Shown here: piece by piece, positions 3,329 through 32,712 of the stretch
Layout: each line of letters begins with the position of its first letter
How positions within the stretch are numbered: the first letter of the stretch is position 1
Source: a virus
Direction: 5' to 3' (one strand)
IMG/VR virus record: IMGVR_UViG_3300044720_000003
Coordinates: 1 to 35,878 of that record
Length of the DNA: 35,878 nt
Notes under the pieces: model-generated
What the model was told of the DNA's origin: nothing
Databases searched by the model: none
What the model saw: only the letters and a program-made list of their open reading frames with translations
Made by a program: the position numbers and the translations under genes

Positions 3329-5170
3329 ATGGCACGAACGAAGCAGCAGGCACCGGAGATCACCCCGGTCATCCCCTCCAACTCTCTTGTCGCTTCGGCG
3401 GTGCGCTACCCCGGCACCGTTCCCCGCATCCACAACCACCTCAACCAGTCATGGCAGAAAGAGTGCTACCGACACTACGCGATCTGCGGCGAGGCTCGTG
3501 CCGCCGCACGCTTCTTCGGACGCGCCCTGTCCCGCTCCGTCCTCCGCGTCACCCGTGAGGTGCAGGACGGCGTGCGTGAGGTCGTCACCGACGGTGTGAC
3601 GTACGACTTGCTGGAGGACCTGTTCAACGGCAAGGACGGACAGGCCCAGATGCTGGAGTCCATCGGCATCCACCTCACCATCGCCGGAGAGTGTTATCTC
3701 ATCGGGCGCACCGTCACCGCCGAAGATGACGACGGCAACATCTACGAGCAGGGCGAGGTCTGGGAAGTCGTCTCCGTACTGGAGGTCAAGGTTCTGGGCG
3801 CGCAGTGGGCCATCTCCTACGGCGACGGCTACGCCGACATCCCGCTCAAGGACGACGACATCGTCATCCGCATCTGGCAGCCCAACCCGGCCAAGCGCAT
3901 CGAGGCCGACAGCCCCTTCCGTTCACTGCTCCCCATCCTCAGCGAGATCGAGTGGCTCACCCGCCACGTCTTCGCCCAACTGTCCAGCCGTCTGGCTGGC
4001 GCTGGCATCCTGTTCCTCCCCCAAGGCATGACGTTCCCGGCCCCTCCGGAGACTGGTGGCAAGGCCAGCGAGACCGCCAACGAGGCCGACCTGTTCATGC
4101 GCGTCCTCGGCGACGCCATGATGACTCCTCTGGAGGACCCGTCCAGCCCGTCGAGCCTGATCCCCATCATCGTCACCGCGCCAGCAGACGCCATCGACAA
4201 GGCGCAACTGATGACGTTCTGGACCGAACTCGATGCGAACAGCAAGGAGATGCGCGGCGAGGCGATCCACCGCTTCGCGGTCGGCATGGACCTGCCCAGT
4301 GAGCAGATCGAGGGCATGGCCAGCAACAGTGGAACGGGGGGCGGCACCTCCAACGGCGTGAGCCACTGGGGCGCGTGGCAGATCGAGGAGTCGACGATCA
4401 AGATGTACGTCGAGCCGATGGCCGAACTGGTCGTCAATGCTCTCGTCGTCTCGTACATCCGCACCAACGCGCCGAACGAGACCGACGAGGTCATCGCCGA
4501 CACCTCTGCCCTCCGTCTGCGCCCGGACCGCTCCAAGGAGGCCATCGAACTATGGCAGGCCGGAGCCATCAGCACCGCTCGGATGCTGCAGGAGAACGGC
4601 TTCGATCCTCACGACCAGCCCGATGAGGATGAGATCAAGAGGTACTTCCTGCGCAAGATCGCCTCGGGCTCGGCCACACCTGAGCAGGTGGAGGCGGCGC
4701 TGGAGGAGATCGGCATCGTGCTCAACTCGGGGCGTTACCAACTCGAGCAGGGACCCATTCGTGAGACCCGGCCCGACCCATCGCTCGAGGACCACCCCAC
4801 CCGCCCCCGGACTCCCGGTGACGACGAGCCTGTCATCCCTCAGCAGGACGCGGCACTGCTCGCGGCCTGCGACGGGCTCGTCTACCGGGCTCTGGAGAAG
4901 GCGGGCAACCGCGTGCTCAACGCTCGCACTCGTGGTAAGGATCGTCCCGTCGGGGTCGATCCTTTGTCGGTCCACTGTGACCACCAGATCAACGGGCAGG
5001 GGCCGAAGTTGCTGGCCGACGCCTTCACGTTTGCTCCACAGGTACTCGCCGGGATCGCCGATCCGGACAGGATCATCCCGACACTGCGGGCCTACTGCCT
5101 GCACTTGTTCGACGACCAGATGCCCCACTCCAAGGAGCGTCTGGCGGCATTCATGGAGGCATCAGCATGA
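3329..5170 (+). CDS. Portal protein
   Basis: This 613-residue protein follows the terminase and HNH genes and overlaps the MuF/protease gene by four bases (ATGA), the standard portal position. It would form the dodecameric ring through which DNA enters and leaves the head and on which the connectors assemble. Family-like features are the early helical segment (HYAICGEARAAARFFGRAL, about 50-68), the membrane-free mixed core, LAGAGILFLPQG near 227-238, and a helical stretch with SNSGTGGGTSNGVSHWGAW near 333-351 that resembles the portal wing/stem region. The C-terminal about 150 residues are less typical and may point into the capsid or bind the MuF protein. No signal peptide is seen. Confidence 0.85.
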   Translation: MARTKQQAPEITPVIPSNSLVASAVRYPGTVPRIHNHLNQSWQKECYRHYAICGEARAAARFFGRALSRSVLRVTREVQDGVREVVTDGVTYDLLEDLFNGKDGQAQMLESIGIHLTIAGECYLIGRTVTAEDDDGNIYEQGEVWEVVSVLEVKVLGAQWAISYGDGYADIPLKDDDIVIRIWQPNPAKRIEADSPFRSLLPILSEIEWLTRHVFAQLSSRLAGAGILFLPQGMTFPAPPETGGKASETANEADLFMRVLGDAMMTPLEDPSSPSSLIPIIVTAPADAIDKAQLMTFWTELDANSKEMRGEAIHRFAVGMDLPSEQIEGMASNSGTGGGTSNGVSHWGAWQIEESTIKMYVEPMAELVVNALVVSYIRTNAPNETDEVIADTSALRLRPDRSKEAIELWQAGAISTARMLQENGFDPHDQPDEDEIKRYFLRKIASGSATPEQVEAALEEIGIVLNSGRYQLEQGPIRETRPDPSLEDHPTRPRTPGDDEPVIPQQDAALLAACDGLVYRALEKAGNRVLNARTRGKDRPVGVDPLSVHCDHQINGQGPKLLADAFTFAPQVLAGIADPDRIIPTLRAYCLHLFDDQMPHSKERLAAFMEASA

Positions 5171-8100
5171 CGGCACTCTCTCTGTCACGTGAAGAGTTCG
5201 CGGCCAAGCGTCGCGGCGAGCAAGACAAAATCGTCGAGCGCCTCTCCGGGGTCATCGGCGCATCATTCAGCACCGGCGACATCCAGAATCTCAAGGCTGC
5301 GCTGGCGAACATCTACAAGGAGGTGTGGTCCGAGGAGAAGGGCGACACCGCTCCGATCCGCAATATCAACGTCTTCCTCGAAGCCGTCACCGACATGCTC
5401 AGCCACGCCAACGAGGACTCCTCGGTCGAGACAACCGCCCTCGCACTGGCGAACTACGTCTTGAACTACGCCACCAACGACGCCTACAAGCATCAGGGCA
5501 TCGAGATGGAGTGGGTCTCGATGAACGACGAGAACGTCCGCCACTCCCACAAGGAGGCGGACGGCCAGCGTCAACTGCCGGGCGAGAAGTTCACCGTCGG
5601 CGAGTCCAAGATGCTCATGCCCGGCGACGTCACCGCGCCCATCGAGGAGTGGATCAACTGTCGCTGCTCCCTCAAGCCGGTCCAGAAGCGTGAAGCGTCC
5701 GCTGCCCTGACCGCTGCACTCCAGCCCATGGCGTCCGAGGGATTCCTCAGCGTCTCTCGTGCACTGTTCGACGAGGCCATCGCCACCGGCATGGCCGTCC
5801 AGTCCGGCGTACGCGAGGAGGATGGTGTCGTGTTGTACGACCTCAAGCCTACGGCCCGCATGCACTCCAATGGCCTCGTCTTTGCGGCCGATGTCCCCGA
5901 GGATGCCCTCTCTGTCATGGCGATCCCAGCAGAGGGTGACTCAGCGCATGAGGTGTCCATCGAGGACACCCACGCGACGCTTCTCTACTTCGGCTCTGTC
6001 CCACCTACCGACGAGTCTGACGATGGGGCCATCGACGCTGTCAAGGCGTGGGCGCATCAGATCGCCGCCGACGCCCAGCCCTTCACCGCAGAGGTGCAGG
6101 GGGTGGAGCCTCTTGGTGACGGTGGTGCCATCGTCTGGATGCTCAAGGACTCTGATCTCAACGGATTGTTCGAGGGCATGCTCAGTGATGATCGAGTGCG
6201 TCAAGCGTATGAGGACTCGCCATCGGAGAAGTACGACACATACACTCCGCACGTCACCATCGGGTACGACATCCCCGCCAGTGGGGACATGATCGAGGCC
6301 GTGTCCGCCGTCACTGAAATCACCTTCGACCGCCTCGCCGTGTGGCATGGTAGTGAACGCACCGAGTACCCCTTGGGAGAGCCCATGACCGAAGCAGCAG
6401 CAGAGACCGAGCCGGTCATCGAGGAGACTCCCACCGAGGAGGCCCCCCCGGTGGACGACCGCATCCCGTGGCACGGCGTCCTCGCACCCGAGGGTGTGCG
6501 CTCCGGTGACGGACGCATGTTCAGCAACCTCGGTCGCACCCGCGACCTGCCACTGCCGCTGACATGGCAGGAGACCAGCGCGGACGGGCACGACCAGAAC
6601 ATCACGGTCGCCCAGATCGAGTGGGTCGAGATGCGCGACAACCTCATGTGGGGTGGCGGGCACTTCCTGTCCAGCGTGGACGAGGCTGACGAGGCCATCG
6701 GGCTCATCGCCGAGTTCGGTAAGTTCGGCGTCTCCGTCGACGCGGACGACATCGGCTCGGCCACCTACGACGAGGCCAGCGAGACCGAGACGTACGACGA
6801 CCCCCGCGTCTCGTCCGCCTGCATCGTGTCGATCCCGGCGTTCGCCGAGGCGTTCGTGGCCATCGGTCCCGACCCCCTGCACGACGAGGATCAGGCCAAC
6901 GGCGATGTCCCGCCCGAGGACCTGCCGGAGGAGGAGGCCCTCGCCGCTGCGGGTGTCCCCCTGCTGCAGATGGCAGGCGTCCCCGAGTCGTTCAAGCAGG
7001 CCGCGTTCGCCAAGGTCGAGGCCGAGCGCGAAGCCGCTGCTCGTCTCGCCGAGGACTGGGACTCCATCGAGCAGTTCAAGGACCTCGCCCCCGGCGTCAC
7101 CGAGGATGGGCCGGGCTGGCTCACCCATCCAGTGGACACCGACCGCCTGCGCGACTACTGGGTCCGTGGCCCCGGAGCGGCCAAGATCGGCTGGGGCGTC
7201 TCCGGCGACTTCAATCGCTGCCGCGTCAACGTGGCCGAGTACGTCAAGCCCCAGTACCTCAACGGCTACTGCGCCAACCGTCACTACGATGCGCTGCATG
7301 TCTGGCCCGGACAGGAGGCGGCGAACAGTGGTGTCTCCATGGCCGACCAGATCGCCCAGCGTCTGGCTGCTGGTGAGGAACTGCCTGCGCATGTCGTCTC
7401 TGAGCCCGCGCCGACCCTGACCCTCGTGGCCAGTGGTGGCAAGGCCCCGGGCTACTTCGCCCCGAGTGAGTTCTTCTCTGAGCCGCTCGAGTGCGACCCC
7501 GACGATGGTGTTGTCATCGAGGCTGCGAACGAGGACGGCCTCCTGCGCACCTTCGGCTACATCGCCGAGTGGGGTGTGTGTCACATCGGCTACGACGGCA
7601 TGTGCAAGGAGGCTCCTCCGAGCCCCAGCAACTATGCCTACTTCCGCAAGGGAGTCGTCAACACGCCCGACGGCGCGGTCCGGGTCGGCGCACTCACGGC
7701 TGCCACGGGACACGCCAACCCCCGGCTCAAGGCCATGCCCGCTGCTGCGCACTACGACGACACTGGTTCGGTCTGGGCTCTGGTCGCCACCGGGGAGAAC
7801 GCCCGTGGCATCTGGTTCAGCGGGCTGGTCAAGCCCGGTGCGGACGAGCAGTTGCTCAACGACGTGGTGGCCAGTGGCCGCCTCTCGGGAGACTGGCGAC
7901 CCATCGGCAACGATCTGGAACTGATGGCGGCCCTGACGGTCAACGTCCCCGGCTTCCCGATCGTGCCCACCACGACGGCGGCCCATGATGGACGTCAACT
8001 CTCGCTCGTCGCAGCAGGCGTGCCCGCACCCAAGATCGAGGAGAGCCCCGCCGTCACGTTGGACCTCAACGACACCGAGGGCCTGTCTCTCATCGCCTCA

Positions 8101-8178
8101 CTGGTGGTGGACGAGATGGAATCCCGCAAGGCACGGCGTGACCGGCTCGACGCACTCAAGGAGAAGGTGAACTCCTGA
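5167..8178 (+). CDS. MuF-like / 2H phosphoesterase-like / capsid maturation protease fusion
   Basis: This 1003-residue polyprotein has several recognisable parts. Residues 1 to about 190 are MuF-like, ending in WVSMNDENVRHSHKEADGQ and a Cys-containing EEWINCRCSLKP. Residues about 240-410 carry two H-x-T motifs, HATLLYFG near 269 and HVTIGY near 362, the signature of 2H phosphoesterases. Residues about 434-580 (WHGVLAPEG, LPLPLTWQ, GHD near 473, FGVSVDADD near 521) and about 757-935 (GYIAEWGVCHIG, GHAN near 847, AHYDD near 860, RLSGDWR near 906, VNVPGFP) match the two halves of actinophage prohead proteases. Between them, about 650-716 is a W/R-rich module (LTHPVDTDRLRDYW to WPGQE). MuF and protease parts fit head assembly and maturation. 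The role of the 2H part is unknown. Confidence 0.85.
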   Translation: MTALSLSREEFAAKRRGEQDKIVERLSGVIGASFSTGDIQNLKAALANIYKEVWSEEKGDTAPIRNINVFLEAVTDMLSHANEDSSVETTALALANYVLNYATNDAYKHQGIEMEWVSMNDENVRHSHKEADGQRQLPGEKFTVGESKMLMPGDVTAPIEEWINCRCSLKPVQKREASAALTAALQPMASEGFLSVSRALFDEAIATGMAVQSGVREEDGVVLYDLKPTARMHSNGLVFAADVPEDALSVMAIPAEGDSAHEVSIEDTHATLLYFGSVPPTDESDDGAIDAVKAWAHQIAADAQPFTAEVQGVEPLGDGGAIVWMLKDSDLNGLFEGMLSDDRVRQAYEDSPSEKYDTYTPHVTIGYDIPASGDMIEAVSAVTEITFDRLAVWHGSERTEYPLGEPMTEAAAETEPVIEETPTEEAPPVDDRIPWHGVLAPEGVRSGDGRMFSNLGRTRDLPLPLTWQETSADGHDQNITVAQIEWVEMRDNLMWGGGHFLSSVDEADEAIGLIAEFGKFGVSVDADDIGSATYDEASETETYDDPRVSSACIVSIPAFAEAFVAIGPDPLHDEDQANGDVPPEDLPEEEALAAAGVPLLQMAGVPESFKQAAFAKVEAEREAAARLAEDWDSIEQFKDLAPGVTEDGPGWLTHPVDTDRLRDYWVRGPGAAKIGWGVSGDFNRCRVNVAEYVKPQYLNGYCANRHYDALHVWPGQEAANSGVSMADQIAQRLAAGEELPAHVVSEPAPTLTLVASGGKAPGYFAPSEFFSEPLECDPDDGVVIEAANEDGLLRTFGYIAEWGVCHIGYDGMCKEAPPSPSNYAYFRKGVVNTPDGAVRVGALTAATGHANPRLKAMPAAAHYDDTGSVWALVATGENARGIWFSGLVKPGADEQLLNDVVASGRLSGDWRPIGNDLELMAALTVNVPGFPIVPTTTAAHDGRQLSLVAAGVPAPKIEESPAVTLDLNDTEGLSLIASLVVDEMESRKARRDRLDALKEKVNS

Positions 8179-8990: not shown

Positions 8991-9396
8991 GAAGCAGCGC
9001 TTTCGCGAGTTCCTGTTCATCGGACTCGTCGGACTGGCCATGGCCACCTTCATCGGCTTGTCGTTCTACCAGAACCACCACGACGCGGTGCGTGAGCGGG
9101 AGTCGAAAGCCCGCGAGGACCGCCAGACCGCCCTCTTCCAGAAGTGCATCACCGATGTCGTCGGCGATCTGGTCGATGCGCTCACCACGCGTAGCAGTGT
9201 GACCACCAAGGATGCCAACTCGGTCACCACGCTCATCTCGGAAATCTTCGCCGCCAACGGCAATCAGGCCAAGGCCCTCAAAGCGGTCGACAAGTACAAC
9301 AAGACGCAGGCTGAGGTCGCGCAGACGCGCAAGGACAGCCCCTTCCCACCATTCCCTGACGGCAAGTGCGACTTCACGGAGGGAGCCTCTCCCTGA
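8977..9396 (+). CDS. Single-pass membrane protein with long soluble domain
   Basis: This is a 139-residue protein if it starts at GTG 8977, which has GGAGG four bases upstream. The in-frame ATG at 8953 would add eight residues but has a poorer ribosome site. A transmembrane helix lies at about 12-31 (FLFIGLVGLAMATFIGLSFY). It is followed by a charged helical domain with a cysteine (FQKCITDVVG), an Asn/Lys-rich helix and a Pro/Phe-rich end with a second cysteine. N-anchor plus helical external domain, next to an endolysin, is reminiscent of spanin- or LysZ-like envelope proteins, but that is only positional inference. Confidence 0.65.
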   Translation: MTTPEKQRFREFLFIGLVGLAMATFIGLSFYQNHHDAVRERESKAREDRQTALFQKCITDVVGDLVDALTTRSSVTTKDANSVTTLISEIFAANGNQAKALKAVDKYNKTQAEVAQTRKDSPFPPFPDGKCDFTEGASP

Positions 9397-9716
9397 TGGA
9401 TGCGCAGACCTTCTTCACGATCAAGGGCATTCTGGGTGCCGTTGGTACTGCGCTCCTGCTCATCCACATGAACCGCTCGTGGAGGGACTTCGACAAGGAC
9501 TGCGACGGCATCGGGACGGGGATCGGCCAGAGGATGCGCTTCCTCTGCATGTTCGGCTTCGCGGTGCTGGTCACCTCAGCGTCGTACGAGCAGATCAAGG
9601 ACGGCGTGAAAGTCCATCCTCACAACGTCGGCGCACTCCTTCTGGCCATCGCGCTGATCCTCACCACAGTCGTCTCGATCATCGAGTCCGAGCGCGCCAG
9701 TCACCGTAGGCACTGA
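9396..9716 (+). CDS. Three-helix membrane protein, holin candidate
   Basis: This 106-residue protein has three predicted hydrophobic helices at about 8-26 (TIKGILGAVGTALLLIHM), 48-65 (FLCMFGFAVLVTSASY) and 80-98 (VGALLLAIALILTTVVSII), with a charged Asp/Arg loop and a basic C-terminus. The ATG at 9396 overlaps the preceding stop (TGATG), and the gene ends 14 bases before the endolysin start. Size, topology and position are compatible with a holin or antiholin working with the later 11335 protein. Confidence 0.65.
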   Translation: MDAQTFFTIKGILGAVGTALLLIHMNRSWRDFDKDCDGIGTGIGQRMRFLCMFGFAVLVTSASYEQIKDGVKVHPHNVGALLLAIALILTTVVSIIESERASHRRH

Positions 9717-9730
9717 GAAAGAAGATCACC

Positions 9731-11308
9731 ATGGCAACCAAGACCGCACCACACACCATGACGGACGCTGGCAAGCGCGCCGCAGCCAAGGTCGGCAGGT
9801 CCAACAAGTTGGGCATGTGTCTGGCCGAGTGCATCAATCCGGCGTACGGCTCGCCCTACTCCATCCCCGGCCCATGGCGCTGGGGTGGCAATGGCAGGGC
9901 GTGGGCCATCAACTTCTGGCTCGCAGCGGTGGCGCACGGCACCGTCGTGAAGACCGCCGACCCGGCCAAGATTCCCAAGGGTGCTCTCGCGTTCATGGTC
10001 AAGAACGCCGACAAGGGCAAGGCCAAGCCCGGTGGTGCTGGGCACGTGTTCATCGGTGCTGGCGGTGGCTACGCCTACTCCACCGACCGGCCCAAGAACT
10101 ACAAGTGGGGCCGCGTCACCATCCGGTCCATCGAGTCCGCGTGGGGCATGACGCTGGTGGGCTACATCCTCGTCACCGCCGACGGCTACGACCTGCGTGA
10201 CGAGACCAGCACCAAGCCCCCGGTGGCCAAGTGGAGCGACCCGGACACGTTCGTGCTCGGTGCCACAGGTGCCGACGTGAAGCGTTTGGGCGAGCGGCTC
10301 AACGTCTGGGCCATCGTCTACGGTTACACCCCAATCGCCAAGCCCGGCTCCCCGTTCACCATCGTGGACCAGAAGGCAGTCAAGGCCTTCCAGATGGCGC
10401 AGGGCTGGGCCGGAGAGAATGCTGACGGCTTCCCCGGCAAGGAGACGCTCAAGCGTCTGGCCGCAGACCCCAAGCCTGTGCTCACTCCGGGCACTCCCAT
10501 CGTCTGGGACGAGCGTGTCCATGGCATCAACGCATGGGCCGACTACGGCGCGAGCACCTACCCCAGCCGAGTCGACGACCTCAACCGCGTGCGCGACACC
10601 ACTCGAGCCCGCAAGGTGCTGGTCTGCGAGCAGGGTGGCTACGAGGATGGCGAGTTGCTCGACAAGGCCTACGGCTGGGGCGGTCGGCGCGCTGGCACCG
10701 TGGCCAAGGACAAGGCCTCCTTTGTCGTGCACTCCGGCAAGGATGTGCGCATCGCCGGGGGTGTCCACTGGGACCCGGCCAAGAGCCTGCTCATCTCCGA
10801 GGACTGGTACTCCACCCTCCCCTCCTCGACCCACAACGGCCTGACCGCTGCGGTGCTGCAGGATCGTGAGACCGGGGGCCTGTCGGTCAACGGCGTGATC
10901 CACTGCGTGCCGTGGCCCATCGGACCCAACGACGTCAAGAAGTGGAACGACCAGCGGTACGAAGAGGTCGGCGCGGCGCTGGAAATCATGGACGAGATCC
11001 GCGCTGAGGTCGCCCGGGAGTTCAACGTCAAGATCGTCCCGGGCATCCTCGGGGAGGACTTCAACGGTCCGCGCACCGACAGCAAGTACCCCGGTGGCGA
11101 CGGTCCCGGTCGTGCCGCCAAGGACAACGGCTGGGTCGACGCATGGCAGATCGCGGCCAAGAGGCTCGGCATCACCACCGCGCAGATCGACCGCTTCCTC
11201 GTGTCGCTGGAAGGCGTCGAGGTGGTGGAGCACAATGTCGTGAAGACCAACGGGGCGACCGATCACCCCTACGCAGTGGGCGTCCTCCTGCGGCTGACGA
11301 ACGGCTGA
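9731..11308 (+). CDS. Endolysin fused to an endonuclease/exonuclease/phosphatase-like domain
   Basis: This 525-residue protein has three parts. Residues 1 to about 155 look like a Cys-His peptidase (CHAP or NlpC/P60-like): C30/C34 at the N-terminus and H105 in AGHVFIGAGGG. Residues about 168-246 resemble a peptidoglycan-binding domain (GATGADVKRLGERLN, VDQKAVKAFQMAQGW, FPGKETLKRL). Residues about 260-525 show the ordered motifs of the EEP (DNase I-like) fold: VLVCEQGG near 296, VIHCVPW near 393, GEDFNGP near 441 and TDHPYAV near 511. The first two parts would cut and bind cell wall during lysis. The third could hydrolyse nucleic acid or another phosphoester. GAAAGAAG lies just upstream of the ATG. 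Confidence 0.75.
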   Translation: MATKTAPHTMTDAGKRAAAKVGRSNKLGMCLAECINPAYGSPYSIPGPWRWGGNGRAWAINFWLAAVAHGTVVKTADPAKIPKGALAFMVKNADKGKAKPGGAGHVFIGAGGGYAYSTDRPKNYKWGRVTIRSIESAWGMTLVGYILVTADGYDLRDETSTKPPVAKWSDPDTFVLGATGADVKRLGERLNVWAIVYGYTPIAKPGSPFTIVDQKAVKAFQMAQGWAGENADGFPGKETLKRLAADPKPVLTPGTPIVWDERVHGINAWADYGASTYPSRVDDLNRVRDTTRARKVLVCEQGGYEDGELLDKAYGWGGRRAGTVAKDKASFVVHSGKDVRIAGGVHWDPAKSLLISEDWYSTLPSSTHNGLTAAVLQDRETGGLSVNGVIHCVPWPIGPNDVKKWNDQRYEEVGAALEIMDEIRAEVAREFNVKIVPGILGEDFNGPRTDSKYPGGDGPGRAAKDNGWVDAWQIAAKRLGITTAQIDRFLVSLEGVEVVEHNVVKTNGATDHPYAVGVLLRLTNG

Positions 11309-11334: not shown

Positions 11335-11646
11335 ATGGAACACGTCATCACAGTCGATCAGGCTCTGTGGGGCCTGCTCGTTGCACAGATCCTTCCGCTT
11401 CTGGTGGGATTCGTCACCGACAAGGTGGCATCCAGCGGGCTCAAGGCATTCCTCCTGATGGCGCTGTCGGCTGTCGTGACGATCGCTGACGAGATCGCAT
11501 CGGTAGGGTCGTTCGAGGTCAAGGAGACGATCCTGCGCTTCGCCGCCCTGTTCTTCGCGGCGGTCCTTTCCTACTTCGGCTGGCAGCGCAAGACCATCGC
11601 GCCTCCGGTACAGGAGAGCGGTCTTTCGCTCGGCGCTCCGAGGTAA
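11335..11646 (+). CDS. Holin
   Basis: This 103-residue protein has three hydrophobic helices at about 10-28 (LWGLLVAQILPLLVGFV), 34-52 (SGLKAFLLMALSAVVTIAD) and 65-82 (ILRFAALFFAAVLSYFGW), and a soluble Pro/Ser-rich tail. The segment LLVGFVTDKVASSGLKAFLL is of a type often annotated as holin in actinophages. It follows the endolysin after 26 bases with a strong AAAGGAGAAA site. It would form membrane lesions that time lysis and release the endolysin. A terminator follows, closing the lysis unit. Confidence 0.75.
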   Translation: MEHVITVDQALWGLLVAQILPLLVGFVTDKVASSGLKAFLLMALSAVVTIADEIASVGSFEVKETILRFAALFFAAVLSYFGWQRKTIAPPVQESGLSLGAPR

Positions 11647-16285: not shown

Positions 16286-17132
16286 GTGAGCGTGACGCTT
16301 CCTGAGTACGGCGGCTGCCTGTGGCCCGCCGATCCGGCCTGCCTCGGAGAGAAGTGGGACGCGCTGGACCCCGAGATCAAGGAGCGCGCCCTCGCGCTGG
16401 CCAGCAGCACCCTGCGCCGCCTGACGGCCTACCGCGTGGGGGGTTGTCCGCCCGGTCACCGTGCGCCCCTGTGCTCCTCGAGGATTCTGTGGCTCGTTCG
16501 TCCCGTTCCAAGGATCGTTCGGACAGGACTGGATGCAGCCCGGCATCAACGTGTCGGGCCTGTGGGTGAACTCCTGCGGCTGCTCTGGCGACTGCGGCTG
16601 CTCAATCACCGATGGGGTCTGGCTCCCGAGCCCTGTCGGCGAGGTGTACGAGGTCAAGGTCGACGGCAACATCATCGACCCTGCTGACTACGCCGTCTCG
16701 CAGGGTGTCCTGTACTGGGTCGGCAACGGTCCCAGCCCCTTCCCCGCCACGCAGGACATGAACCTCCCCGACTCCCTCCCGGGCACCTTCTCCATCTCCT
16801 ACCTCAACGCCTACCCGGTCGACATGCTGGGTGCACAGGCGGCGGCATTCCTCGCCCTCGAGTTCGCGCAGGCCTGCAAGCCCAAGGGCAAGTGCGCACT
16901 GCCCCGTGGCGTCACCTCGGTGGTGCGCAACGGCGTGACGTTCGAGATCGAGGCTGGCTTCTTCCCCAACGGAGAGACCGGCATCGACGTCGTGGACGCC
17001 TACATCCAGATGTGGAACCCGGACCACCGCACCCGTCCGACCACGGTGTGGACTCCCAGTCAGGGCCGCTCCTCGCACGCCCGCTCTGGCGTCTCGGGTG
17101 CGCCGAGCATCCTCGACGGAGGTGTCATATGA
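16286..17132 (+). CDS. Head-to-tail adaptor, split by an apparent +1 frameshift
   Basis: The adaptor is encoded in two frames. From GTG 16286 the first frame gives about 54 residues (LPEYGGCLWPADPACLGEKW to RLTAYRVGGCP). Around 16448-16454 the sequence must shift by one base to continue as PVTVRPCAPRGFCGSF in the frame that ends at 17132. Together they make a protein of about 281 residues with adaptor-like features: the WVNSCGC/GDCGC cysteine cluster, VGEVYEVKVDGNIIDP, QDMNLPDSLPGTFSISYLN, QAAAFLALEFAQACKPKGKCALP and VDAYIQMWNPDHRTRP. It would bind beneath the portal. The extra C in CCGCCCGG may be a sequencing error, a mutation or recoding. GAGAGGAT precedes the start. Confidence 0.75.
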
Positions 17133-17509
17133 GCACGGAGTTCGTCTTCCGGTTCAAGCGTGGCACCCCCGAGCGATGGACCACGACCAACTACATCCTC
17201 GGTCCCGGCGAGCCCGGCGTCGAGGTCGTGCCTGATGGCCCGGACCTGCTCAAGATTGGTGACGGCGTCACGCCATGGAACAGCCTCACCTATGTCGGCC
17301 TCTCTCCGGACGACCTGACACAGGAGCAGTTGGAGGCCTATGTCCAGCAGGCGGTCGCCGACCTCGAACTCACTCCCACGGATGCCAGCATCACCAACCT
17401 GCTGGAGGATTCCGGCTCAACCGCACATGGGGCTGTCGTCGTCATCGTGCATGACGAAACAGACCCTCTAGTCGTCTTGAACACCTTGTTCGAGAACGCA
17501 CTCATCTGA
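17129..17509 (+). CDS. Tail protein with Mtd N-terminal-like module
   Basis: This 126-residue protein starts with a module of the kind found at the N-terminus of phage fibre and tropism proteins (Mtd_N-like): FRFKRGTPERWTTTNYILGP, then DLLKIGDGVTPWNSLTYVG, with IGDG at residues 43-46. A helical segment (LTQEQLEAYVQQAVADL) and a hydrophobic end (GAVVVIVHDETDPLVVLNTL) follow. The ATG overlaps the adaptor stop (ATATGA). It is the first gene of the fibre cassette and may anchor or trimerise a fibre. Two related modules lie at 20495 and 20692. Confidence 0.7.
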   Translation: MSTEFVFRFKRGTPERWTTTNYILGPGEPGVEVVPDGPDLLKIGDGVTPWNSLTYVGLSPDDLTQEQLEAYVQQAVADLELTPTDASITNLLEDSGSTAHGAVVVIVHDETDPLVVLNTLFENALI

Positions 17510-18677: not shown

Positions 18678-20480
18678 ATGAGCCTCGTTTCGCAGGTATC
18701 CGCCGCACTGACACGGATCGGGCAAGAGTTCGTCACGCTCCGGTCAGTGTTCGGCGACCCTCTGGACGAGGGGCGCGCACTGCGCACGTTCCGTGGGGCT
18801 TATCTGGGCGGCGTGGCCACGACACCGACGGACATTCTCATCGTCGGTGCTTCGACCGAGGAGGGCTACGGCACCACGCAGATGAACAATGCGTGGCCGA
18901 TGGTGTTCAGGGACGACCTGCGAGCCTACGCACAGCCGAAGGGCATGGCTGGAGGTGGCTCGATCTCCGGGTCGGTCACCCCTGCGCTGTATCAGGCTGG
19001 CGTGGGCAACTACTTCGGCTTCGGAGGCATCGGTCGCTACACAGGCGGTGCTGACGGCACCTACCCTGACACCCCGATGTTCGGCGTCTCCGGCACCTTC
19101 TCGGTCACGACCACGTTTGGTCTGGGCCTGCGAGGGATCGCGGCCCTGACCAACGGTGCGACATTCTCTCTGGAGTGGTTCGGCACCGGGATGGATCTGG
19201 TGTACTCGACCGATCCGACATTCGGGGCGTTCACTTGGGCGGTCGATGGGGGCAGCACCACCGCCGTCAACACCAACCCCGCCTCATCGAACGGCAACCG
19301 CGTACAGATCCGAGGCTTGGCTCGAGGGCGGCACACCGTTCAGGTCGTGGTGACCAGCCTCGGATCGGGTGGCGCGGTGGCATACGAGGGTGCTGCCTTC
19401 TACGACGGGGACGAGGGTGGCGGCATCCGTGTCTGGCAGGCCGCTCGTGCTGGCTACAGCGCCTTCAGTTTCGTCGCCACCACCGGGCAGACCGGCTGGA
19501 TCAACTCGATCCAGACGTGGAACCTGCCCGATCTGGTCATCATCAACCTCGGCTTCAACGATTGGACGCAGGGCCGCACCAGCGCACAGTGGAAGACCGA
19601 CACGTTGGCGATCATCGCCGCCATCAAGGCCCGCTGCAACACTCTCTCTGCCGGGTTCGTCCCTTCCTTCGTGCTCATGACGATGTTCGCCGCAACCCCT
19701 GCAGGTAGCGCGCACGTCGAGCCGTGGGCCAACTTCATCATCAAGGCCCGCGAGATCGCTCAGGCTGACGAGGAGGTGTGCCACTTCGACTTCCAGAAGT
19801 GGTTCGGGCGTCCGACCGAGACCGCCATCTCCACCCGTGGTGGCATCCTCGTCGCCGATGGGGTGCACGCCAGCGACAGCGGTGCGGCGATCATGGGCGG
19901 GGCACTCGCCGAGTTTGTCCTCGGCTCTGCTGAGCGCATGCGCGACTTGGTGCGGTACGGCACACAGGCCGCCAGCCCCACCTACAACGCGGCGATCACC
20001 ACGCCCGCTGCAGGCTTCGCCGCCGACACCTACGTGACGGGTTCGGCGGTGGCAATCCCGGTGGGCAGGATCAAGCCGGGTGCGATCTACCGCTGCAAGT
20101 TGAAGGTCAGCAAGACAGGTGCAGGCGTGGCGACCCCGATCGTGCAAGTGCGTCTCGGCACTGCAGCCACCACCGCTGACACATCGCGAGCGACCCTGAC
20201 GTTCGCCGCCCAGACGGCTGTGGCCGACGACGGATTCATCGAGGTGTTCGTGACCGTCCGCGCCACGGGCTCATCCACGGGCGTCATCCATGCCGTGGGA
20301 GTGCTGGATCACTCTCTCGCCGCCACCGGCCTTTCGACGGCCAACACCAGCATCAAGGAGGCGACCTCGTCCACGTTCGACACCACCACTCCCACGTTCA
20401 TCGGCATCTCTGTCAACGGCGGAACAAGCGCCGCGTGGACGATCTCGATGGTCCAAGCAGAACTCCAAGGCTGCGCCTAA
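18678..20480 (+). CDS. Fibre-anchored SGNH (GDSL-type) hydrolase
   Basis: This 600-residue protein has a fibre-like N-terminus (MSLVSQVSAALTRIGQEF) and then an SGNH hydrolase: block I nucleophile S59 in IVGASTEEG, block III N294 in LGFND, and block V D394/H397 in ADGVHASDSG. The order and the long insert between block I and III fit this enzyme class, which removes acyl or acetyl groups from carbohydrates and lipids. Residues about 440-600 are beta-rich (TYVTGSAVAIPVGRIKPGAI and on) and could be a carbohydrate-binding or trimerisation domain. It probably deacylates a host surface polymer during adsorption. The substrate is unknown. Confidence 0.8.
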   Translation: MSLVSQVSAALTRIGQEFVTLRSVFGDPLDEGRALRTFRGAYLGGVATTPTDILIVGASTEEGYGTTQMNNAWPMVFRDDLRAYAQPKGMAGGGSISGSVTPALYQAGVGNYFGFGGIGRYTGGADGTYPDTPMFGVSGTFSVTTTFGLGLRGIAALTNGATFSLEWFGTGMDLVYSTDPTFGAFTWAVDGGSTTAVNTNPASSNGNRVQIRGLARGRHTVQVVVTSLGSGGAVAYEGAAFYDGDEGGGIRVWQAARAGYSAFSFVATTGQTGWINSIQTWNLPDLVIINLGFNDWTQGRTSAQWKTDTLAIIAAIKARCNTLSAGFVPSFVLMTMFAATPAGSAHVEPWANFIIKAREIAQADEEVCHFDFQKWFGRPTETAISTRGGILVADGVHASDSGAAIMGGALAEFVLGSAERMRDLVRYGTQAASPTYNAAITTPAAGFAADTYVTGSAVAIPVGRIKPGAIYRCKLKVSKTGAGVATPIVQVRLGTAATTADTSRATLTFAAQTAVADDGFIEVFVTVRATGSSTGVIHAVGVLDHSLAATGLSTANTSIKEATSSTFDTTTPTFIGISVNGGTSAAWTISMVQAELQGCA

Positions 20481-20494
20481 CCGAAAGAGAGAAC

Positions 20495-20695
20495 ATGATC
20501 CGACGTAGTGAGTACCTCGTGGGGACGGAGGCCGACTGGGCCATCGTGAACCCGGTGGTCCAGAAGGGCCAACTGGCGGTGGTGACACCCATCAACGCCA
20601 TCAAGATCGGTGACGGGGTATCCCGTTTCGACACACTAGACTTCGTGACCACCGGCACGGGTGAGTACGACCAGATTGATGGGGGAACACCATGA
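20495..20695 (+). CDS. Short Mtd N-terminal-like tail protein
   Basis: This 66-residue protein consists almost wholly of the module seen in its neighbours: RSEYLVGTEADWAIVNPVVQ followed by AIKIGDGVSRFDTLDFV, with IGDG at residues 38-41. No fibre domain is attached. ATG 20495 follows AAAGAGAGAAC, and the gene ends in a four-base overlap with the next. It may be a capping or connecting subunit of the fibre complex. Confidence 0.7.
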   Translation: MIRRSEYLVGTEADWAIVNPVVQKGQLAVVTPINAIKIGDGVSRFDTLDFVTTGTGEYDQIDGGTP

Positions 20696-21285
20696 TCGTC
20701 CGCATGCAGCAGAAGCGGGGGTCCGTCGCTGAGTGGACCGCCGCCAACACCGTCCTCCTCGAGGGTGAGTTCGGCTGGGACGAGGAGAACGACATCCTCA
20801 AGATCGGCGACGGAGTCACACACTGGCTCGACCTCCCTATCCACAGCGGTGGCGCTGTCGGCAGGGTCGCCTTCGTGGAGAACCGCTCCGGCACGGTCAC
20901 CTACTCCACTGGTCCCGGCGCTCCGATCGAGGGCATGATGATCGCCGTCCCGCCGTCGTCTCGTGACCTGCGGGTCGAGTGGGGCGCGACCACCGGCATG
21001 GCCGTCGGTGGAGAGGGTGCGATCCAGACGCTGCTGATCGAGACCACGGGCGGCGGTGGCGTCGTCCAAGGAATCTGCGCCAAGAAGTACGAGTCCAACA
21101 ACCTCGCGTCGGCACAGGGCTTCACACATGAGGGTCGCGCCTCTGGCCTCGGGTCGTCTGCCGTGTGGCGGACGTTCCAACTCCTGCTCGGGCACTACTC
21201 CTCCACCGGTTCGTCCATCGTGGGGTACGTGACCAACGGCGACACCAACTACAGCAAGACCTACCTGTTTGGAGAGTACGTCTGA
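20692..21285 (+). CDS. Tail protein with Mtd N-terminal-like module and beta-rich C-terminus
   Basis: This 197-residue protein starts with MQQKRGSVAEWTAANTVLLE and ILKIGDGVTHWLDLPI (IGDG at residues 38-41). After about residue 52 it continues with a beta-rich, Gly-rich domain (TYSTGPGAPIEGMMIAVPPS, GGGVVQGICAKKYE, HYSSTGSSIVGYV). That part looks like a small receptor-binding or trimer-forming head. The ATG overlaps the previous stop (ATGA), with GGGGGAA upstream. It is likely a short fibre or fibre tip, inferred from architecture. Confidence 0.7.
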   Translation: MIVRMQQKRGSVAEWTAANTVLLEGEFGWDEENDILKIGDGVTHWLDLPIHSGGAVGRVAFVENRSGTVTYSTGPGAPIEGMMIAVPPSSRDLRVEWGATTGMAVGGEGAIQTLLIETTGGGGVVQGICAKKYESNNLASAQGFTHEGRASGLGSSAVWRTFQLLLGHYSSTGSSIVGYVTNGDTNYSKTYLFGEYV

Positions 21286-27979: not shown

Positions 27980-29407
27980 ATGTCTTGGGATGGCTACTAC
28001 CGCTACGGCGACACAGAGATCATCAACGCTGCCCGCGTGCGGGCCTACTCCGAGGCGCTGGGGATGTACTGGGTCAAGGAGGCTGGCACCGGGAAGAACG
28101 TCGGCGACCTCCCCGCGCTACTGGGAGACCAGCCGTACACCTTCCCCGTCATCGACGGCGCTCCGTGGTACGACCCAGACGCTCCTGAGTCGGGCAACTT
28201 CGCAGGGGTGCTGCCGTTGAAGATCTCGGGCATCGAGGACAGCACCCGAGAGAGCAGTGTCTTCGAGTTCACTCATGATGGAGGAAATCCGGGCACCCTG
28301 CGAGAGGGGACCAAGGCGGTCACCTTCTCGGTCGCGCTGGTGGGCACCAATGAAGCAGCGGTGGAGTATGGCTTCCGCTGGCTCAAGCGCGCTCTGCGGC
28401 GTCGGGACTGCACACCGGGCTCTACGGTCAACTGCAGGGGCGAACGGCTCACGTACGCCCGTCACGAGCCGCTCGACCTGCCTCCAGCCCTGACAGGCAC
28501 CCTGCTGGACGGGACCTCACCTGATTTCCTCGGCGGGGACATCTATGACGGCGGCTCCCCCAGCGACCTGATCGCCCCGATCATGGACGGCGCTTCTCCT
28601 GAGACCACACTAGAATATGTGCCCACCGCGACATGGAGCAACCACTACGAGCGCCACCTCAACGACGTGCTGATCAATCGTGGCCCGATCCCCAACAGCA
28701 AGCGGACCCTCGGCGGCTGCAATGGCGTGGTGTGGCTGGTCTCCTTCACCGCTGTGGCGGGTGACGCGTACGAGTACGGCAACGCCGTACCCGTGCTCGC
28801 CGAGATGATCTCCAAGATCGACACGGCACAGAGCCCGTACGTCGCTGGGCTGACTGGGGACTACGGCGAGGCGACCTACACGTACGCCACCTGCCCGGTC
28901 ACGGTCACATCGCCGATCTACGACCCCGATTTCTCTCCCTTCACGCCACCCCCGCAGGCACCTGACCTGATGCCGACGGGCTGGACGTACCCGGCAGGGA
29001 CGCAGAACCGGATGTACGCCGAGATCCCTGCCAGCGTGGTCCCCTTGTGGGACGAGGTGCGTCCTCTGATCGTCGTGGAGGGAGGAGCACTCGAGCATCG
29101 GATGATCCGCCTGCGCTTCTACCCCGAGGGCACCGACCCGGACACCAACTGTGGCGAGGTCGGGGAGTACGTCGTCTCCTACCTGCCGCAGGACACCACG
29201 CTCTACATCGACACCGCCCAAGAGGCGGTCTACGTGATCAGTGGAGATGCGGTGCGGCGTGCTGACTCACTGGTGTTCGGATGGGATGCTCGACCGGTCA
29301 CATGGTTCGGGCTGTCGTGTGGCGACGGTTACCTGATGACCGTCGACAGTGATGACCCGATCACCGACTTCGACGTGCACGTCTCTCTCGTCCCCCGGAG
29401 CGCCTGA
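27980..29407 (+). CDS. Distal tail-type minor tail protein
   Basis: This 475-residue protein follows the tape measure and precedes the hub, the normal place of the Dit-like ring that starts the tail tip. Family-like segments are SWDGYYRYGDTEIINAARVR at the start, GTLREGTKAVTFSVALVGTN near 102-121, the FRWLKRALRRRDC helix, and NHYERHLNDVLINRGPIPNS near 222 with GGCNGVVWLVSFTAVAGDAYEYG after it. The last about 130 residues are beta-rich and may be an added surface domain. GGAGG precedes the ATG. The 3' end overlaps the next gene (TGATG). Confidence 0.85.
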   Translation: MSWDGYYRYGDTEIINAARVRAYSEALGMYWVKEAGTGKNVGDLPALLGDQPYTFPVIDGAPWYDPDAPESGNFAGVLPLKISGIEDSTRESSVFEFTHDGGNPGTLREGTKAVTFSVALVGTNEAAVEYGFRWLKRALRRRDCTPGSTVNCRGERLTYARHEPLDLPPALTGTLLDGTSPDFLGGDIYDGGSPSDLIAPIMDGASPETTLEYVPTATWSNHYERHLNDVLINRGPIPNSKRTLGGCNGVVWLVSFTAVAGDAYEYGNAVPVLAEMISKIDTAQSPYVAGLTGDYGEATYTYATCPVTVTSPIYDPDFSPFTPPPQAPDLMPTGWTYPAGTQNRMYAEIPASVVPLWDEVRPLIVVEGGALEHRMIRLRFYPEGTDPDTNCGEVGEYVVSYLPQDTTLYIDTAQEAVYVISGDAVRRADSLVFGWDARPVTWFGLSCGDGYLMTVDSDDPITDFDVHVSLVPRSA

Positions 29408-32400
29408 TGGCAACATTCACCGATGTCAAGATCACCAACATCAGTGGCACCACCGGCACGGCCTCAGCCACTGGCGACATCGGTGGCGTGGGGGATGACG
29501 AGTTCATCTCCCGGTGGATGACAGGCAAGGCTGCTCCGCACATCACTGGCACCCTGACCACTGTGTCGGGCGACCATGCCAGTGGCTGGCGGCACCGTGC
29601 CCTCATCGCCATTGCGCCGTGGGACACCAGTGATGCGGGCGACTGGAGCGACGGTAGCCGGTTCTTCACTTCGAACTACCGCACCACCGCAGGCGCACTG
29701 GTCTTCGACTTCGCCATCCCGACCACACTCCTCGCAGCGGGCACCAAGTACCGGGTCGGCATCTGGGTCGCCAAGGGTGACCCGAGCATCACCAGTCCGT
29801 ACCAGTCCGGCTGGGTGACGTATGGTCCGACGCTCCAGACCTCGTTCTGGACCAACCGCACACCTGATGCGCCGGTCATCACCGACCCCCCGACTGGTGT
29901 GTCGATCCCTTACAACGCTGGGGTCACCTCCGAGTTCGACTTCTCGTGGACGTTCCACGACGACGACCTCGTGGCGGGCACGACGCCAGCGCTGAAGGAC
30001 TACTACGGCTATGAGGTCCAGTATCGGGCCACGCCGACACCGCTCGACCCCAACCCGTCGTGGCAGAACTTCACGTTGGATGCCTACTACTCCGGCTACC
30101 GGCACCACACCTCATGGGTGCTGGACGACGCCACGGAGCCCGGCGGCTGGCAGTTCCTTCTCGAAATGACCAACGGCAACCAGAACACCATCAAGATGGC
30201 GGCCCAGCCGGGTGAGTGGGTGGCTCCACCGACCACTCCGGCTGATCGCATCCTCGGGCGCATCGGGGTAGGCACGTGGCAGTTCCGCATGCGCATCTTC
30301 GACCGCAGCGACACGACAGCGACCACCCCCGCAGCAGTTCCGGCCTACGGCACGTCCGCATGGTCCAACACGATCACCATCAACATCACCGCCGCGTTCC
30401 TCCCACCTCTCCCGGTCTACCCGATCAACGATGTGGCCGTACAGAAGGACGTGGTCAGGTTCGAGTGGGTGTTCCGCGACCCTCGAACGACCGGCGGCAC
30501 ACAGATCAAGCGTCGCCTGCGCATCCGCAAGGTGGGCGACGCGGCATGGACCGAGATCATCCCACTGAACGCTGCCATCACCTCCTGGCCCACGGGCCTA
30601 GCCCTCGCCCAAGGCATCACTGTCGCGCCCGACGGTTCTGCCATCTTCGTTCCCGACTTCACCACCAGCACCCTCCATAAGTACGACGCGGCAGGCACTC
30701 CGGTGGCCTCATGGTCGACCACTGGCGTCCCTCGTGACGTCGTGCGCGACTCGGCAGGGAACCTATATGTCGCCGACTACACGAACAAACTGGTCCGCAA
30801 GTACAACTCGGCTGGTGTCGCTGGAATCACGTGGTCCACGGTAGGCAACCCGTCGGGTCTCGCCATCGACTCGGCCAACAACATCTACGTCGCTGACTCC
30901 ACCAACCTCCTCGTCCGCAAGTTCTCCTCGACCGGTGTCGCCGGGATCACCTTCGGAACCACCAACCAGCCCGTGAATCTCGCTGTTGACTCGGCGGGCA
31001 ACATCTACGTCTGTGACGCCTTCGCTGGTCTGATCCGCAAGTACAACTCAGCGGGCACTGCCGGGATCACGTGGGCGTACACCGGCGTGGCAACCATCGC
31101 CATCGACTCGGTCAACAACATCTACGCCACCAGCGGTGCCGAGATCGTCAAGAAGTACAGCACCACCGGAACCCTGCTGCAGACGTGGAATGCGTCTGAG
31201 GCTTCGATCACCGGTCTGGCCACCAACGCAGCGGGCAATGTCTACGTCACCGGCATCACCGATGACACGGTGTATGTCTTCGACCCGCCCAACATTCCCG
31301 CCGACACTGGAGGCGAGCAGTTCTACGAGTGGATCAGCGGCACTCATGGATTCACCCTGCAGGCGGGCGAGCAATACGAGTGGCAGCCCCGCACCGTCTC
31401 CTCGCCCGGCAACTTCGACAGTGACTTCTCCGGGCCGTCTGGTTTCTTCTGGGCCATCCCTCTGGAGAACTCCGGTCCGGTGTTCCCCGATCCAGTTGAC
31501 ACGCTGCCCGATCCGGGGCTGGGCTGCGGGGACAACCGCCCCTACCTCTACACCCGAGGAGGGCTGGAGCGTCTCGGAGAGATCACCCAGACCTCTCTGG
31601 TGCGGTGGGGTCGCACTCGTGACGGGATCAGCACCGCCACCATCCGCATCGTGGGATGGAGTCAGGACTGCGGTGAACTCCTGAAAGCGATGCGCTGCTG
31701 GATGAACGAGATCGTCATCTACCGCGACAACGGGAACGGGGCCAAGCGGGTGTGGGAGGGGCCGGTCACCCGCATCACGTACGCCACCGACTACGTCGAG
31801 ATCGAGGCTCAGGACGTGTGGGCCTATGTCTACCGGCGCATCCTCCGGCAGGGCTTCAACGACGCCTACCGCCGAGTGGGGTGGAAGTACGGACCGGGAG
31901 GTGTGGTGCTGGTGCAGGGGCAGGAGTACGGCCTCACTCCCGTCACCCGCCGCTCAGCAACCATCGTCCAGAACGCGCTGGCCTACGACGACCCCAACCT
32001 CCTCGCCTACCTCACAGTGCTCGAGCAGCCCGACGATGCCCGGCAGAGCCGGACGGTGGCCGACTTCTCGACCACGGCATGGCAGCAGGTGGACGACTTC
32101 GCGGCCAAGAGTGGGCTGGACTACACGGCCATTGGTCGCAGGATGATGTTGTGGGACACCCACAACCCGATCGGCATGCTGCCAGAGATGCGCGACGATG
32201 ACTTCGGAACGCCCCCGATCGTCACCGAGTACGGCATGCAGTTGGCCAACTTCTACGGCGTCACCAACAACGCCGGGGTGTATGGCACTGCTGACCGACT
32301 GACCAGTGGGCTGCCGAAGTACTACGGCTGGATCGAGATGCTCTCCAGCGCCTACGGGGAGAGCGAGGAGGGTGCGGGGACCGTCACCCTGACCGCCGCT

Positions 32401-32712
32401 GCACAGGCTGCGCTCGAGGAGGCCTTGACGGAGCAGGCTGAGCGCAACATCGCCAGCCGCTGGCCGACGCCGCTGATCGTGCGGGTGCCGGACAACACGA
32501 CCCTCAATCCGGAGTTGAACATCAGCATCAACCACCTCGTGCCGGGTGTCTTCATCCCGGTGCGGGCCACCGGTACGCTGCGTGAGGTGGTGCAGATGCA
32601 GAAGTTGGACTCGATGCAGGTCTCACAGACCGACAGCGGGGAGTCGATCACCGTCACCCTCTCACCTGCACCTCGTTCTCGTGACGAGGACCCGGACGAG
32701 GGAGGTGTCTGA
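29407..32712 (+). CDS. Tail hub / minor tail protein with inserted NHL beta-propeller
   Basis: This 1101-residue protein has beta-sandwich-like N-terminal domains (about 1-390, fibronectin type III-like segments such as PVITDPPTGVSIPYNAG and PVYPINDVAVQKDVVRFEW). A propeller at about 393-628 has blades like GNLYVADYTNKLVRKYNSAG and NNIYVADSTNLLVRKFSSTG repeating about every 41 residues. The hub part from about 690 on contains LLKAMRCWMNEIVIYRDNGN, RVWEGPVTRITYATDYVEIE and VYRRILRQGF, the typical actinophage minor tail core. The hub closes the tube and contacts the cell. The propeller is probably a surface-exposed binding domain. The C-terminus (PGVFIPVRATGTLREVVQMQ) is also hub-like. Confidence 0.85.
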   Translation: MATFTDVKITNISGTTGTASATGDIGGVGDDEFISRWMTGKAAPHITGTLTTVSGDHASGWRHRALIAIAPWDTSDAGDWSDGSRFFTSNYRTTAGALVFDFAIPTTLLAAGTKYRVGIWVAKGDPSITSPYQSGWVTYGPTLQTSFWTNRTPDAPVITDPPTGVSIPYNAGVTSEFDFSWTFHDDDLVAGTTPALKDYYGYEVQYRATPTPLDPNPSWQNFTLDAYYSGYRHHTSWVLDDATEPGGWQFLLEMTNGNQNTIKMAAQPGEWVAPPTTPADRILGRIGVGTWQFRMRIFDRSDTTATTPAAVPAYGTSAWSNTITINITAAFLPPLPVYPINDVAVQKDVVRFEWVFRDPRTTGGTQIKRRLRIRKVGDAAWTEIIPLNAAITSWPTGLALAQGITVAPDGSAIFVPDFTTSTLHKYDAAGTPVASWSTTGVPRDVVRDSAGNLYVADYTNKLVRKYNSAGVAGITWSTVGNPSGLAIDSANNIYVADSTNLLVRKFSSTGVAGITFGTTNQPVNLAVDSAGNIYVCDAFAGLIRKYNSAGTAGITWAYTGVATIAIDSVNNIYATSGAEIVKKYSTTGTLLQTWNASEASITGLATNAAGNVYVTGITDDTVYVFDPPNIPADTGGEQFYEWISGTHGFTLQAGEQYEWQPRTVSSPGNFDSDFSGPSGFFWAIPLENSGPVFPDPVDTLPDPGLGCGDNRPYLYTRGGLERLGEITQTSLVRWGRTRDGISTATIRIVGWSQDCGELLKAMRCWMNEIVIYRDNGNGAKRVWEGPVTRITYATDYVEIEAQDVWAYVYRRILRQGFNDAYRRVGWKYGPGGVVLVQGQEYGLTPVTRRSATIVQNALAYDDPNLLAYLTVLEQPDDARQSRTVADFSTTAWQQVDDFAAKSGLDYTAIGRRMMLWDTHNPIGMLPEMRDDDFGTPPIVTEYGMQLANFYGVTNNAGVYGTADRLTSGLPKYYGWIEMLSSAYGESEEGAGTVTLTAAAQAALEEALTEQAERNIASRWPTPLIVRVPDNTTLNPELNISINHLVPGVFIPVRATGTLREVVQMQKLDSMQVSQTDSGESITVTLSPAPRSRDEDPDEGGV
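30586..31290 (+). repeat. NHL-type propeller repeats in the hub gene
   Basis: About six in-frame repeats of roughly 41 codons share the pattern (N/G)-N-(I/L)-Y-V-(A/C)-D, then (L/V)-(V/I)-R-K-(Y/F), a Gly turn, and a hydrophobic strand ending at (L/V)-A-(I/V)-D-S. The first blade (DGSAIFVPDFTTSTLHKYD) and last blade (GNVYVTGITDDTVYVFD) are more divergent, as expected for the ends of a closed propeller. Confidence 0.8.

Follow-up and report, generated by a model that had tools for sequence, protein, structure and literature searches.

Lysis of Gram-positive-type hosts by phages is described as the work of a holin and a peptidoglycan hydrolase, together with LysB-type esterases in mycobacteriophages. 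A gene of an uncultured virus, carried on IMG/VR record IMGVR_UViG_3300044720_000003, raises the question of why an endolysin should continue, beyond its peptidoglycan-binding part, into a domain resembling the endonuclease/exonuclease/phosphatase (EEP, DNase I-like) family. The 35.9-kb stretch analysed, referred to here as the window, encodes this protein in an open reading frame (ORF) whose coordinates, length and strand agree exactly with those given in the initial annotation (Table 1). Our favoured answer, on which our confidence is evenly balanced, is that the EEP domain is a phosphoesterase that joins the endolysin in attacking the envelope, rather than an enzyme for the clearance of host DNA.

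The domain was initially recognised by an ordered series of motifs and all of these are present, i.e. E300 (LVCEQGG), H391 (GVIHCVP), D443-F444-N445 (GEDFNGP) and D511-H512 (ATDHPY), with D487 (QIDRF) situated between the last two. Motif order was nevertheless rejected as evidence for EEP, being no more frequent than in shuffled sequences (a regular expression matched 11 real ORFs, the expectation from shuffling being 8.7). Since the order arises by chance about as often, the observation had to be tested by comparison. Residues 258-525 alone gave no matches in Pfam, PHROGs, PDB sequences or INPHARED, and no close relatives of the domain were found in IMG/VR, GTDB genomes, plasmids or INPHARED. 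The window domain did not match the Pfam family Exo_endo_phos (PF03372), whereas EEP proteins of three related contigs passed its cut-off of 24.5 bits (L008, 37.2 bits; L104, 31.1; L003, 25.2).

Using hhalign and a profile of 11 relatives, the window domain scored 31.9, whereas the best of 250 real-ORF decoys reached 23.8 and the best of 150 shuffled sequences 21.3. Leave-one-out profiles recovered most family members with hmmsearch E values of 1e-5 to 1e-74, and recovered the window, L014 and L019 weakly. The window domain gave no signal with a two-sequence profile (A3) and was not recovered by a 16-member profile (P 0.12); hence, the sequence evidence alone would be weak. In an alignment of 15 divergent sequences, the only invariant columns were E300, H391, D443, N445, D511 and H512, which are the six EEP catalytic positions; the catalytic set is thus kept, and not degenerate, across the relatives aligned. 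Searched by sequence against PDB chains, the EEP family profile matched 3l1w (E 3.3e-5), followed by 4ruw, 4c1r and 3mpr.

An AlphaFold model built from 15 aligned sequences (the window domain and 14 relatives) had a predicted template modelling score (pTM) of 0.71 and a predicted local distance difference test score (pLDDT) of 66; these sequences had been picked as EEP and the model may be biased as a result. The model built from the single sequence (pTM 0.19, pLDDT 34) was discarded as useless. With the alignment-based model, 81 PDB matches were obtained at E ≤ 1e-3, and Foldseek returned nocturnin (E 2.3e-9, probability 1.00) as well as TDP2 and Bacteroides EEP proteins. The best VIA match of this predicted model was 3mpr (Z 18.3, 211 residues, root-mean-square deviation 3.4), and all of the top 50 VIA entries have the EEP fold. 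As modelled, the C-terminal domain of the window protein clearly has the four-layer alpha/beta EEP fold, in keeping with what had been proposed from its motifs. Known EEP enzymes (Bacteroides 3mpr and 3g6s, mannosyl-6-phosphatase 4c1r, TDP2, nocturnin and bacterial sphingomyelinase C) have the same fold and catalytic residue set but only 8-17% sequence identity to the window domain in structural alignments, and to our knowledge none of them is part of a phage lysis enzyme.

The remainder of the protein is that of an endolysin, as initially annotated. Its N-terminal part, which had been read as Cys-His peptidase-like, gave no match in a Pfam search; C30, H105 and T118-D119 are invariant alongside the CHAP-like lysins of four phages (L012, L057, L100 and L016), that of L016 being matched by phmmer at E 2.7e-4. 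The peptidoglycan-binding assignment of the middle part was borne out by a match of residues 156-245 to the PHROGs endolysin family phrog_17214 (E 1.4e-11), accompanied by a weak Pfam match to PG_binding_1 (E 0.015). Within residues 148-263, the window protein is 38-49% identical by tblastn to Streptomyces phage endolysins of PHROG 17214 (from Paedore, Janus and relatives), but the match ends at approximately residue 263 and the EEP domain is unmatched. A PHROGs holin follows the endolysin-EEP gene directly and the locus is therefore a lysis cassette, which further supports the endolysin identity.

The capsid protein of the window belongs to a group known chiefly from Actinobacteria phages, and relatives were gathered by two scans with capsid alignments, which yielded two overlapping sets of 80 related contigs each. 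The closest relative found first, L003, encodes a protein of 539 amino acids on the opposite strand, between the genes for a MuF-type head protein and the capsid protein, in which a peptidase that is M15-like by motif is followed by a peptidoglycan-binding part and, at the C terminus, an Exo_endo_phos domain above the Pfam cut-off. In L008, an amidase_2 lysin is followed by a separate EEP gene. Further cases of an EEP with an endolysin are L012, L014, L015, L017, L019, L022/L023, L098, L099, L100, L102, L103, L104, L105 and L139. With L022/L023 taken as one and the window included, there are 17 distinct phages, and in every one the EEP either forms part of an endolysin or is its immediate neighbour. 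Six of these (L003, L012, L014, L015, L017 and L019) were found by reading the lysis interval and are therefore not independent cases. Searches based on the EEP itself, which are blind to position, found L008, L022/L023, L098, L099, L100, L102 and L139, all beside an endolysin, and their weak matches (L103, L104 and L105) likewise all lie beside a lysin. In L022/L023 the EEP is outside the usual lysis interval. No capsid gene of this group was seen in the L099 and L100 records, both of which are fragments, and no relatives of the L003/L008 pair were found in GTDB genomes.

The EEP is paired with lysins of four catalytic types, assigned in some cases with Pfam support and in the remainder by similarity or motifs: CHAP (window, L012, L100 and L105), M15-like (L003, L014, L015 and L139), M23 (L017, L022/L023, L098, L099, L102, L103 and L104) and amidase_2 (L008 and, by resemblance, L019). 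Other lysins of the group lack an EEP (e.g. L011, L013, L016, L057 and L114), so that the EEP partner is optional. The lysins of L011 (3330-5708), L013 (4203-5660) and L016 (6502-8217) have another long C-terminal domain in common (VSYLQG..RVDAMT motif), which is perhaps an alternative partner. A PF03372 match in the L016 record was located in a head protein and set aside as chance. The lysis genes are opposite in strand to the capsid gene in L003 (6916-8535), L008 (5691-7503), L017 (6617-8541) and L102 (7771-9692), and on the capsid-gene strand in the window, L012, L014 and L015.

The fusion described in the initial annotation is conserved in part: the pairing recurs in related phages, but in-frame fusion was found in the window and L003 only (2 of 17), the other phages having separate frames. 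Stop and start codons of the lysin and EEP genes overlap by 4 bases in L008, L014, L015, L019 and L100, and the two genes overlap by 1 base in L104; these 1-4-base overlaps (six phages) suggest coupled translation. The EEP of L012 starts 6 bases past the lysin stop, and in L139 the EEP gene precedes that of the M15-like lysin. For the remaining seven of the 17, i.e. L017, L091 (L022/L023), L098, L099, L102, L103 and L105, the EEP reading frame is +1 relative to that of the lysin and opens ahead of the lysin stop. The sequence TAC TTT TGA is found at the lysin stop of L017, L091, L099 and L102, and a TAG variant in L098. L102 and L105 lack any ATG, GTG or TTG from the preceding stop up to the first EEP strand; their EEP frame reads through a Pro/Gly/Ser-rich linker. 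A +1 frame without its own start codon suggests, at the sequence level, that programmed +1 frameshifting joins lysin and EEP, and the lysin stop sites may be likened to the prfB frameshift site, CUU UGA C. Alternatively, the EEP may use a non-standard start codon. RNA folds downstream of the putative sites had no consistent structure (z -2.2 to +1.2; -2.8 for an EEP-less control) and hence, a frameshift stimulator is not claimed. The +1 frameshift, if real, would be a route to short and long forms of the lysin.

The modelled EEP fold and the intact catalytic set predict a metal-dependent phosphoesterase, whose enzyme activity, place of action and substrate are inferred. In the mechanism proposed, the holin would open the membrane first, the CHAP-like part would then cut peptidoglycan peptides while the middle part anchors the protein to the wall, and the EEP domain, as a metal-dependent phosphoesterase, would help to dismantle the envelope. 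The likeliest substrate would be an envelope phosphoester, whether in the backbone of a wall glycopolymer, in its phosphodiester link to peptidoglycan, or in a phospholipid. We favour such a substrate because a wall-binding module tethers the window domain, and because the EEP is retained while the lysins paired with it vary among four catalytic types. Isoelectric points within the EEP family span 4.5 to 9.7 and show no shared basic charge; together with the wall-module tether, this spread suits an envelope substrate no less well than it does DNA. The EEP cut would be a second envelope cut beside that of peptidoglycan, comparable in its logic to the pairing of LysB with LysA in mycobacteriophages. 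LysB, a mycolylarabinogalactan esterase, is in those phages a second envelope enzyme beside the endolysin (PMC7246905). The likeness, that of a non-peptidoglycan envelope enzyme accompanying an endolysin, is a functional analogy; the window domain differs in its predicted EEP fold, and its chemistry would be phosphoester cleavage.

Several observations weigh against an envelope substrate. The closest folds are a mixture of TDP2 (a DNA-processing enzyme), sugar phosphatases, nocturnin and sphingomyelinases, and in VIA the phosphatases, TDP2, deadenylases and sphingomyelinases fall within about 3 Z units; the fold therefore does not name the substrate, nor does charge decide. The EEP of most relatives is a separate reading frame without its own wall-binding module. 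Phage EEPs are also encoded away from lysis genes, as in Streptomyces phage Yosif, where such a protein (A0A2Z4QBQ6, identified as gene 5 by length and motifs) is of similar size to the window domain and matches its model structurally, but is encoded near and upstream of the terminase gene, far from the Yosif endolysin gene 28. This EEP-like protein (MH248947, L164; 1675-2373) is annotated as hypothetical.

The main rival, which we consider possible but less likely, is a DNase degrading the host chromosome as the cell opens, which would reduce viscosity and free the virions while packaged DNA is protected by the capsid. DNases belong to this fold family, and TDP2 is one of the closest structures; delivery with the endolysin would place the enzyme where DNA spills, and H391 has its counterpart in the DNase I group of the EEP family, in which the corresponding histidine is found. 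An active DNase would, however, endanger unpackaged phage DNA before lysis unless it required extracellular Ca2+, and both the tether of the window domain to the wall and the lack of a common basic charge suggested by the isoelectric points weigh against this reading. It is unlikely that the domain hydrolyses small phosphoesters such as nucleotides, sugar phosphates or signalling molecules, e.g. to counter host defence or recover nutrients, with late expression as the sole reason for its place in the lysin gene. Nocturnin (which acts on NADPH), mannosyl-6-phosphatase and other EEP phosphatases are among its nearest folds, but such a role leaves unexplained both the constant endolysin adjacency of the EEPs found blind to position and the covalent fusion in the window and L003. 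That the region has no EEP domain, or has an inactive one retained solely for binding, is very improbable, for despite the silence of Pfam and PHROGs, the miss by the 16-member profile and the possible bias of an alignment of chosen sequences, the alignment raised the pTM from 0.19 to 0.71, VIA superposed 211 residues at Z 18.3, the 11-member profile placed the domain above all 400 decoys and all six catalytic positions are kept.

The features of the lysis region are collected in Table 1. The membrane protein encoded just upstream of the lysin had no family matches and is a possible second lysis membrane protein.

Table 1. Features of the lysis region in the window
Feature	Position	Strand	Evidence
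Endolysin-EEP fusion gene, 525 amino acids	9731..11308	+	Translation; PHROGs endolysin match to middle part
CHAP-like peptidase part, residues 1-155	9731..10195	+	C30, H105, T118-D119; comparison with phage lysins
Peptidoglycan-binding part, residues ~156-245	10196..10465	+	PHROGs, PG_binding_1, tblastn
Predicted EEP (DNase I-like) domain, residues 259-525	10505..11305	+	E300, H391, D443, N445, D511, H512; alignment and model
Holin, 103 amino acids, directly downstream	11335..11646	+	phrog_8269 holin, E 1.4e-7; hydrophobic segments
Membrane protein, 106 amino acids, just upstream of lysin	9396..9716	+	Hydrophobicity
Protein of 147 amino acids, single N-terminal membrane segment	8953..9396	+	Hydrophobicity, coordinates
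Membrane protein, 70 amino acids	8641..8853	+	Hydrophobicity, coordinates

Elsewhere in the window, a MuF-type head protein of 1003 amino acids (5167-8178) contains a 2H phosphoesterase domain resembling 2'-5' RNA ligases (PF13563, E 1.2e-7) and has a weak match to the anti-CBASS protein Acb1 (E 0.01); this 2H enzyme could act on cyclic nucleotides after injection. A protein of 1101 amino acids (29407-32712) carries NHL/beta-propeller repeats (PF01436, E 6.6e-16), and a tail-like protein (18678-20480; phrog_15881, E 4.2e-29) includes a GDSL lipase domain. Two proteins, encoded at 16892-17509 (E 0.0026) and 20692-21285 (E 2.2e-6), matched Mtd_N, the N-terminal domain of the major tropism determinant.

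In INPHARED, tblastn gave no matches for eight EEP family members (the window and seven others), and no paper pairing an EEP with an endolysin was found in the open-access literature searched. We regard the window protein as a new form of endolysin, and confirmation of its function would make it a new type of lysis enzyme. We propose tentatively, with rather less than even confidence, that EEP phosphoesterases make up an additional group of phage lysis enzymes, evolving fast and accompanying endolysins of any catalytic type, attached by fusion, translational coupling or programmed +1 frameshifting at the endolysin stop, and opening a phosphate-linked layer of the host envelope. A phosphoester-cutting partner that recurs in uncultured phages, and is unmatched in the cultured collection searched, would add a class to the known lysis enzymes. 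It would also point to a phosphate-linked envelope barrier in some hosts, or to DNA release as a limit on the escape of virions.
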